From: Mycobacterium adipatum
GTDB lineage: Bacteria > Actinomycetota > Actinomycetes > Mycobacteriales > Mycobacteriaceae
NCBI RefSeq assembly: GCF_001644575.1
Contig: NZ_CP015597.1
Span: 124,001 to 188,000, forward strand
DNA length: 64,000 nt
Reading direction: 5' to 3'
How positions within the stretch are numbered: the stretch's first letter is position 1; each line of letters starts with the position of its first letter. Shown in pieces: positions 40,894 through 42,963 of the stretch. The notes under the pieces were generated by a model that was given only the letters and a program-made list of their open reading frames with translations, was not told where the DNA came from and searched no databases. The translations under genes were made by a program, and so were the position numbers.

Positions 40894-42963
40894 ATGGCTT
40901 TAGAAACCGGTGATAACGTCGGTGGCTACACCATCGAATCCGTTCTGGGTTCTGGCGGCATGGGCACGGTGTATCGCGCCGCCAACCCCAGTCTGCCGCG
41001 CAGCGACGCGCTGAAGATTCTCAGCGCCGAGTTCTCCCGCGACGACCAGTTCCGCGCCCGATTCCAACGCGAAGCTGATGTCGCGGCCACCCTGGATCAC
41101 CCCAACATCGTCGCGGTCTACGCGCGAGGGGAAACCGAACAGGGCCAGTTGTGGATTGCCATGCAGTACGTGCCTGGCACCGACGCCGACCGCGAGCTGC
41201 GCGCCGGCACGATGACCGCGCCGCGCGCGGCGCATATTGTCACCGAGGTCGCCAAAGCCCTGGACTTCGCGCACCGCCGCGGCATCCTGCACCGCGACAT
41301 CAAACCGGCGAACTTTCTCATCTCGCCGGCCGAGCACGCCTCCGATGAGGAGCGGGTGTTTCTCGCCGATTTCGGTATCGCGCGGGCACTCGACGACGCC
41401 GGGCACCTGACCACCGACGGCACGGTGATGGCCTCAGTGGCCTATGCCGCACCCGAAGCATTGACTGGCATTGACGTCGATCACCGCTCCGATATCTACT
41501 CCCTCGGTTGCAGCCTGTTTCGGATGCTCACCAACAAGGCGCCGTTCGCGGGTCTTCCCGGCGGGCTAGCGGCCATGGCTGCGGCGCACATGACCTCGCC
41601 GCCGCCGAGGGTCACCGACCTGGTGCCCGGCCTGCCGCGCGCGCTCGATGATGTGATCGCCAAAGCCATGGCCAAGGATCCGGCCACCCGCTACCAGAGC
41701 GCGCGCGAGTTGGCGGCCGCGGCCACCGCGGCGATCGCCGATGCAACGACGGCGATCCCGCGCTCCACGATCACCCAGGAGTGGTCGACCAGCCCACCGC
41801 CGGCGCAGCACCGCCCGCCGGTGCCGGGGCATAGCACCCCGCCACGGCCACCCAGTACCCAGAGTGGGCCGGCACCGTACCCCAGTGGATACTTCAGCGG
41901 TTCCCACGCCCAGACTCAGCCACGCCAGACCGGCGCGCCGCCGGGGCCTCCTCCACCGTCTGCGGCGCGGTCGTTCGCCGACCTTGATGTCGCGCCGAAG
42001 AAGGCCACGCCCAAACGCCGGCTCCTGATCGCAACCGGCATTGTCGCCGTCATAGCGGTCGTCGCCATCGTCGCCGGCGTTCTGATCACCGGTGGACCGG
42101 GCGGAGGAACCGGTGATCCCCGCATGGTCGAGCATGCCCGGGGCACCGCTGAAGTCATCGCCAACCCCCGAGCGGTCGCAGCCGTTGGGCCCGGCGACGC
42201 CGATGCGGTCCTCGCACTCGGCCTGCAGCCGGTGGCGGTGTTGTCTCCGGGTGGGCCTCTGCCGGGATACCTGCGCGACGAGCTCACCGGCGACCCGGCG
42301 GTGATGCAGTTTGTCGACACCAACGCCGTGGCGGCCGCCAAACCGGATGTCATTGTCGCCACCGGGGACCTCGACGACGCCACCTATCAGAAGTTGGAGG
42401 AGATCGCGCCGACCGTGACTCGCCCCAAAGATGATGAGCAGGTCTGGAACTGGCAGACCCAGCTGCAGTGGGTGGGCGAGATCGTCGGCCGTGAAGGGCA
42501 AGCCACCCAGCTGATCAGCACCATCGCAGCCCAGCAGACCGACCTGAGAAATCAGAACGCCAAGGTTGTCGGCAAGACCGTCTCGGTCGTCAACGTCACC
42601 GATAGCGGGGTCTCCGAGACGCTGGCACCGTCGAATGCCGCAGACTTTCTGACCTCGCTGGGATTGAGCTACAGCAACAAGCTGCAACGCCAAAGCACCG
42701 ACCTGACTGTCACCAGGCCGGTAACCGACATGGTCAAGCTCTATCTCATCGACACCGACATCATGGTGGTGGTGCGTACCGACACCACCGCCGGCGGCGG
42801 CGGCGCGGCCGGTCTACCCCGGGAGTTGTCGGCCTATCGCGGCGCGATGGTAATTGTCGATGACCCCGATGTCATCGCTGCGCTCGCCGAACCCGGCGGC
42901 GCCCTGGCGACCCAGTTCCTGGATGCGACGTTTGTACCCGAACTCGCGAGTCGTGTTCCCTGA
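40894..42963 (+). CDS. Ser/Thr protein kinase with an extracellular periplasmic-binding-protein-like domain
   Basis: A 689-aa transmembrane kinase. The Hanks-type catalytic domain has the G-loop GSGGMG (19-24), K41, HRDIKPAN (133-140), DFG (159-161) and AAPEAL. A Pro-rich linker (about 290-370) leads to one membrane helix (about 377-399). The outer part (about 410-685) resembles FecB/FhuD-type binding proteins: RAVAAVGPGDADAVLALGL, then KPDVIVATGDLDDATYQKLE and KLEEIAPTV. Known mycobacterial kinases carry PASTA, NHL, PknH-type or other sensors. A ligand-sensing kinase, perhaps for a metal chelate, is inferred. It lies in one operon with two lipoproteins and the FHA-HTH regulator. Confidence 0.85.
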   Translation: MALETGDNVGGYTIESVLGSGGMGTVYRAANPSLPRSDALKILSAEFSRDDQFRARFQREADVAATLDHPNIVAVYARGETEQGQLWIAMQYVPGTDADRELRAGTMTAPRAAHIVTEVAKALDFAHRRGILHRDIKPANFLISPAEHASDEERVFLADFGIARALDDAGHLTTDGTVMASVAYAAPEALTGIDVDHRSDIYSLGCSLFRMLTNKAPFAGLPGGLAAMAAAHMTSPPPRVTDLVPGLPRALDDVIAKAMAKDPATRYQSARELAAAATAAIADATTAIPRSTITQEWSTSPPPAQHRPPVPGHSTPPRPPSTQSGPAPYPSGYFSGSHAQTQPRQTGAPPGPPPPSAARSFADLDVAPKKATPKRRLLIATGIVAVIAVVAIVAGVLITGGPGGGTGDPRMVEHARGTAEVIANPRAVAAVGPGDADAVLALGLQPVAVLSPGGPLPGYLRDELTGDPAVMQFVDTNAVAAAKPDVIVATGDLDDATYQKLEEIAPTVTRPKDDEQVWNWQTQLQWVGEIVGREGQATQLISTIAAQQTDLRNQNAKVVGKTVSVVNVTDSGVSETLAPSNAADFLTSLGLSYSNKLQRQSTDLTVTRPVTDMVKLYLIDTDIMVVVRTDTTAGGGGAAGLPRELSAYRGAMVIVDDPDVIAALAEPGGALATQFLDATFVPELASRVP

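Follow-up and report, generated by a model that had tools for sequence, protein, structure and literature searches.

The window analysed here, a stretch of 64,000 nucleotides from Mycobacterium adipatum, carries a plasmid gene for a receptor kinase, preceded on the same strand by two lipoprotein genes and a gene for a forkhead-associated (FHA) protein. The features discussed are as follows.

21..17529, no strand assigned: ESX (type VII secretion) locus with EccB, an EccC-type FtsK/SpoIIIE reading frame, PPE, a MycP-type subtilase, EccD, a MinD/ParA-like protein and EspG
37295..38443, plus strand: FHA and helix-turn-helix (HTH) protein, a candidate phospho-reader resembling MupFHA, with a homologue on pRAW
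38440..39666, plus strand: second DUF7373 lipoprotein (lipobox CLAGC, by eye)
39688..40884, plus strand: DUF7373 lipoprotein (lipobox FLAGC, by eye)
40894..42963, plus strand: PknQ-type receptor kinase, 689 residues, plasmid gene
40927..41697, plus strand: Hanks-type kinase domain (residues 12-268)
41752..42009, plus strand: Pro-rich juxtamembrane linker (residues 287-372), mostly disordered, with pLDDT below 50 over most of its length
42019..42090, plus strand: single membrane helix (residues 376-399), with a basic PKRR just before it
42112..42954, plus strand: class III substrate-binding-protein (SBP) domain (residues 407-687)
54985..58368, minus strand: protein with FHA, ABC transporter and PknH_C parts, 1127 residues, a candidate island effector

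The gene product belongs to the PknQ-type membrane receptor Ser/Thr kinases. It joins in a single chain a complete Hanks domain with its catalytic residues (K41, D135, N140 and D159, invariant in 77 aligned sequences), the membrane helix and the SBP outer domain, as a preliminary description of this DNA had observed. The FecB/FhuD-like character which that description gave the outer part is real: the predicted structure matches the class III fold and includes its backbone helix. Its placement of the kinase on a plasmid is supported as well. In the alignment, the window protein deviates at several near-invariant residues of the group (Y407G, Q410R, H416R, T419A and W459Y). A one-off fusion or assembly artefact is ruled out, as 28 of the 148 genus genomes have the outer domain at E ≤ 3.3e-51, and in 25 of these, counting the own genome, a full kinase domain shares its frame.

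A literature search further shows that the kinase-SBP fusion is already published, which rules out a reading of the architecture as new. PknQ (MUP011), encoded on the Mycobacterium ulcerans plasmid pMUM001 and described by Arora et al. in 2014, is a 660-residue protein in which a transmembrane region links a cytosolic kinase to a FepB-like domain outside the cell; MupFHA, an FHA protein encoded near it, binds PknQ and suppresses its autophosphorylation (excerpts of PMC4238996). The window protein aligns with the MUP011 record (NC_005916) over query residues 1-688, in two pieces, with 50.4% identity and 79% coverage (tblastn against plasmids). Both proteins are plasmid-borne, with an N-terminal kinase, one membrane region, a FepB-like outer domain and an FHA gene nearby; the plasmid differs, and here two DUF7373 genes and the FHA-HTH gene precede the kinase on its own strand. 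The same excerpts make no mention of DUF7373, the docking acid considered below or a link to ESX. Plasmid pRAW of M. marinum E11 (NZ_HG917973) has the same order of FHA-HTH, DUF7373, DUF7373 and kinase with Peripla_BP_2, and its kinase is 49.7% identical over 75% and is annotated just as a serine/threonine-protein kinase. The FHA-HTH homologue of pRAW has 362 residues, the length given for MupFHA in the excerpts of PMC4238996. Further plasmid relatives occur in M. alvei, M. arabiense, M. rufum, M. branderi, M. intracellulare and M. avium.

Matches to the outer domain at E ≤ 1e-10 are found in 138 of the 148 genus genomes, the own genome included. The strong group (E ≤ 3.3e-51) comprises the 28 genomes above, two of which have two copies; the weak group begins at 4.7e-22 and, taken in bulk, falls mostly in frames of 300-400 residues. 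The second fragment of one broken copy falls between them (E = 4.5e-33). With the own genome excluded, the kinase domain shares the frame of the outer domain at the loci of 24 of 27 genomes (G020 by way of the M. alvei record with the same coordinates); it lies wholly or partly in another frame at L073 (G009), L078 (G015) and L076 (G055, with an in-frame stop). A sample of 298 genomes from the order again places every strong match within the genus (10 genomes); in two genomes from another genus of the same family, a weaker match shares its frame with a kinase; two other weak long-frame matches (L084 and L085) contain no kinase. A query from this second genus gives one match in each of 16 second-genus genomes, 15 of them in frames of at least 679 residues, with the kinase itself checked in two of the 16. 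Across 301 genomes of the family, matches at E ≤ 1e-30 fall solely in these two genera, at a threshold that misses the own protein too and hence weaker members. One plasmid record, from Tsukamurella tyrosinosolvens, shows 67% identity, which makes the second genus consistent with Tsukamurella. A profile built to include whole kinases gave kinases among the matches listed. The contig of the window also encodes a second kinase outside it (L002, G000:C2:93222-94364), a protein of 594 residues whose kinase half is 50% identical and whose outer part has no Pfam match at E 0.001.

Proximity to ESX genes was assessed in 16 of the 33 same-genus kinase genomes, mostly picked for the length of their contigs. 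In 11 of them EccB and the kinase are no more than 50 kb apart, at about 40 kb (G000), 45 (G020), 18 (G127), 10 (G121), 22 (G124), 23 (G145), 12 (G064), 11 (G132), 29 (G009), 30 (G338) and 19 kb (G389); in five (G116, G095, G012, G357 and G055) EccB is absent from this range. Since such proximity is to be expected on small plasmids, the test was restricted to copies on contigs longer than 4 Mb. Five of these seven lie within 30 kb of eccB, where chance would give 0.032 for each (binomial 7e-7, uncorrected for relatedness); one of the five, G009, has an interrupted frame, and four of six are left without it. In the second genus, 10 of 16 genomes have an EccE match on the strand of the kinase, 2.4-2.7 kb upstream of the outer domain; EccE and the kinase are on different contigs in G434, G319, G424 and G432, and G431 and G433 each have one weak EccE match elsewhere. 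In five of six second-genus loci (L082 and L101-L105), the kinase gene follows MycP and EccE, in three of them along with an EccC-like gene; the sixth starts at a contig end. The ESX (T7SSa) neighbourhood is therefore recurrent, and its appearance in two separate contexts, one in each genus, makes a functional link between kinase and ESX, in one direction or the other, likely. Within the window, EccB is placed at 21-1322 (+); on the whole contig, its profile match extends back beyond the window start and runs across one TAA in frame, so that the gene may begin further upstream or be broken.

Among other type VII systems, TscD (T7SSc) and TsdD (T7SSd) are likewise membrane Ser/Thr kinases with a C-terminal outer part, encoded in a type VII cluster, but their outer parts are predicted to be helical and they belong to T7SS classes other than ESX; FHA proteins occur in several of these variants (excerpts of PMC11217815). 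Conjugation by pRAW-like plasmids requires their ESX loci, as related second-hand in the excerpted PMC10470612.

DUF7373 accompanies the kinase closely. Forty loci around related kinases were collected, and the kinase-SBP frame was parsed in 36. A same-strand DUF7373 gene lies within 3 kb upstream in 33 of the 36, within 200 bases in 31 of those 33; in the window, the gap between the DUF7373 stop and the kinase start is nine bases. With the copies that tblastn added at L018, L062 and L063, DUF7373 is upstream in 36 of the 40 loci, which come partly from related species and are not independent events. It is missing there at L011, L055 (where the upstream sequence ends after 1.6 kb), L073 (which has it downstream only) and L076 (a broken copy). 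Of three loci beyond the 40, L088 and L090 have the gene; it was not found at L089 or beside the second-genus kinase genes, and so is not essential to this kind of kinase. DUF7373 is rare, with two to seven matches per genome in 12 genomes and zero in 14 control genomes, and the name does not occur among openly licensed PubMed Central papers.

Of the 36 parsed loci, 11 have, as the window does, a same-strand homologue of the FHA-HTH protein no more than 3 kb upstream, and homologues of the FHA-ABC-PknH_C protein, with 57-85% identity, occur in 10 of 36 listed loci around related kinases. The latter chain (54985-58368, minus strand) contains FHA domains, an ABC ATPase, an ABC2 membrane domain and a PknH_C tail; we take it to be an Rv1747-like exporter with a fused PknH_C tail. 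Downstream of the kinase, the minus-strand region 44803-47815 encodes two PknH_C proteins and a further protein with a weak CARDB match, below the cut-off.

Class III SBPs that serve ABC importers carry an acidic residue on both lobes for docking to the permease, as in BtuF-type complexes, and we take position 477 to be the N-lobe site. The comparison covered 117 fused outer domains (P0029, P0031 and P0058, which have no HRDxK motif, were left out) and, as the free set, the best 120 of 2605 matches to the free SBP of the own chromosome, which amount to one subfamily. Position 477 is acidic in 118 of these 120 free proteins versus 6 of the 117 fused domains (Fisher p = 2.5e-57, uncorrected for relatedness) and is N in the window protein. 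Two second-genus fused proteins have A and S there, and two other free SBPs have E. In solved relatives, counted on alignments, the residue is E in 4mdy, SirA and YfiY and D in Rv0265c. At the C-lobe acidic position, 612, D or E is kept in 87 of the 117 fused domains. Only the N-lobe docking point of the two is lost, so that a loss of docking is half shown by the alignments.

No FecCD permease match at E ≤ 1e-10 is found in 10 of the 28 kinase genomes (among them G005, which is 84% complete), and the remaining 18 have no FecCD place within 190 kb of the kinase, distances being measured within single contigs, some of them from drafts. The own genome has one FecCD place, on the chromosome (C1), and none on the contig of the window (C2). 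A cognate FecCD permease near the kinase gene, as an ABC-importer SBP would have, was not found. The suggestion in the preliminary description that the kinase skips a transporter thus stands as regards the N-lobe acid and the ten genomes lacking a matched permease; the C-lobe acid, mostly kept, speaks against it. In a FastTree tree of the 117 fused domains with two further ones, 40 free mycobacterial domains and two other free ones, fused and free domains are divided by one split with support 1.0, which makes one old fusion the simplest history to propose. Pkinase is absent from the domains co-occurring with Peripla_BP_2 in the siderophore-cluster table of PMC13293324, as excerpted. The free FecB2-like SBP of the own chromosome (L077:7923-8867, plus strand, 314 residues) is about 35% identical to the outer domain; by eye, no ABC transporter gene is evident among the reading frames listed around it.

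Conservation within the fused domains points modestly toward the cleft. Of the 45 most conserved outer-domain positions, 16 lie in strand-to-helix loops versus 56 of 278 positions overall (p = 0.006), and 7 in helix-to-strand loops versus 40 of 278. The strand-to-helix loops presumably form the cleft side of the class III fold, an assignment made from loop topology, not from coordinates. Mean conservation follows the same trend, strand-to-helix above helix-to-strand loops, although the difference is small and is seen in free SBPs too. The cleft enrichment is modest and would be compatible with a protein partner as well. W518, R628, G634, G636, G640 and D656 are present in at least 115 of the 117 fused domains and are kept in two other-genus relatives at about 30% identity. 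All six differ in mycobacterial free SBPs in two alignments, D656 being common to one other free SBP. W520 and Q523 are common to fused and free SBPs. T629 and P642 were dropped as markers of the fused group, being specific in one alignment and not in the second.

These data bear on whether the outer domain is a sensor at all. It could instead be a protein-docking module that binds a DUF7373, ESX or envelope protein and thereby positions or gates the kinase. A precedent is the orphan class III SBP FecB of mycobacteria, which is complexed with AftB and Rv3035 (excerpts of PMC12802301), and the lipoprotein encoded upstream in most loci would suit such a role, as would the genomes without a permease. 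In FecB, however, conservation lies at the partner interfaces rather than the centre (same excerpts), whereas here the most conserved positions are enriched, if modestly, in cleft-side loops, and the second genus retains the marker residues with no DUF7373 nearby. We consider docking alone rather unlikely. Two PQQ_2-type proteins lie end to end in the window, at 29391-31292 (+) and 31295-33055 (-). Rv3035 is beta-propeller-like; an Rv3035-like PQQ protein was rejected as a partner of these kinases, there being no PQQ homologue in any of the 36 loci listed out of 39, and the window pair is only a lead.

As for the ligand, the preliminary description had proposed a metal chelate, and PknQ has been proposed as an iron or heme sensor. 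FecB2/MhuP (Rv0265c) and FecB (Rv3044) share the class III fold and are among the closest solved structures, although both are stand-alone proteins with no kinase; the closest solved relatives comprise Rv0265c, a heme binder, and siderophore binders. The activity of PknQ is Mn2+-dependent and inhibited by Fe3+ and hemin (excerpts of PMC4238996), and an iron-regulated type VII system has been reported in Corynebacterium glutamicum. Yet the isolated PknQ kinase domain is inhibited by hemin just as the full protein is (excerpts of PMC4238996), so the iron effect is no demonstration of sensing by the outer domain. FecB2 differs from the outer domain in having the N-lobe acid and in its pocket, the residues of which (excerpts of PMC10553834) are not kept at mappable positions: by our own residue count, Tyr39 corresponds to P433 and the Phe pair of the FFEPW loop to Q516 and V517. 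Together with the marker residues, this favours a conserved ligand or binding mode that would be unlike that of FecB2. No IdeR-box-like site occurs in the window at up to three mismatches or on C2 at up to two, in a scan with an IdeR consensus whose control was weak; it gave three palindromic sites at two mismatches in the own genome, all on C1, which indicates limited sensitivity of the pattern. Nor did a Pfam scan of 38 window reading frames return any iron-uptake family. A metal chelate as ligand finds no support in these scans of limited sensitivity or in the hemin effect on PknQ. An outer domain that binds heme or a ferric siderophore would be one form of the explanation preferred below and is rather unlikely. 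As a whole, the earlier reading of a kinase with a siderophore-type binding domain is partly supported. Last, that the outer domain is a transporter SBP feeding an unlinked ABC permease, with the kinase as passenger, is very improbable: the C-lobe acid is mostly kept and the chromosome has its one FecCD place, but the N-lobe acid is lost and ten kinase genomes have no matched permease.

We therefore prefer, with a probability of roughly 0.55, a PknQ-type receptor kinase with a ligand-binding SBP domain, FHA readout and an ESX or envelope output. The outer domain, freed from its ABC permease, would bind a ligand in the interlobe cleft. Closure of the lobes could be passed on through the membrane helix to alter the pairing and autophosphorylation of the kinase domains, and the phosphorylated activation loop or a substrate may be read by the FHA-HTH protein, whose gene is the third one upstream. 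The DUF7373 lipoprotein encoded alongside would be a partner at the outer face, delivering the ligand or acting as co-receptor, and the output would fall on the ESX locus that travels with the gene and on the cell envelope.

While the fusion itself is known from PknQ, its gene link to the ESX machine and to the DUF7373 lipoprotein looks new. Within CC-licensed PubMed Central papers we found neither link in print, nor the docking-acid loss; a connection of ESX with a kinase-SBP protein does not appear in the excerpts of PMC11217815, PMC4791881, PMC5452490 and PMC10470612, and the word "kinase" is absent from PMC4791881 and PMC5452490. More tentatively, these proteins may be the first group found in a receptor-kinase arm of ESX (T7SSa), in which the SBP kinase would read a ligand from outside, perhaps heme, a siderophore or a molecule that stems from a mate or the envelope, and FHA readers would switch the plasmid's ESX and perhaps its transfer.

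Few mycobacterial receptor kinases have a known input. The fold of this outer domain has ligands that can be screened in vitro, which makes the input of the kinase directly testable. Should the ESX link prove functional, it would provide a phospho-switch for the ESX class, as so far suggested for other T7SS classes (excerpts of PMC11217815), and a handle on the timing of conjugative plasmid transfer in mycobacteria.
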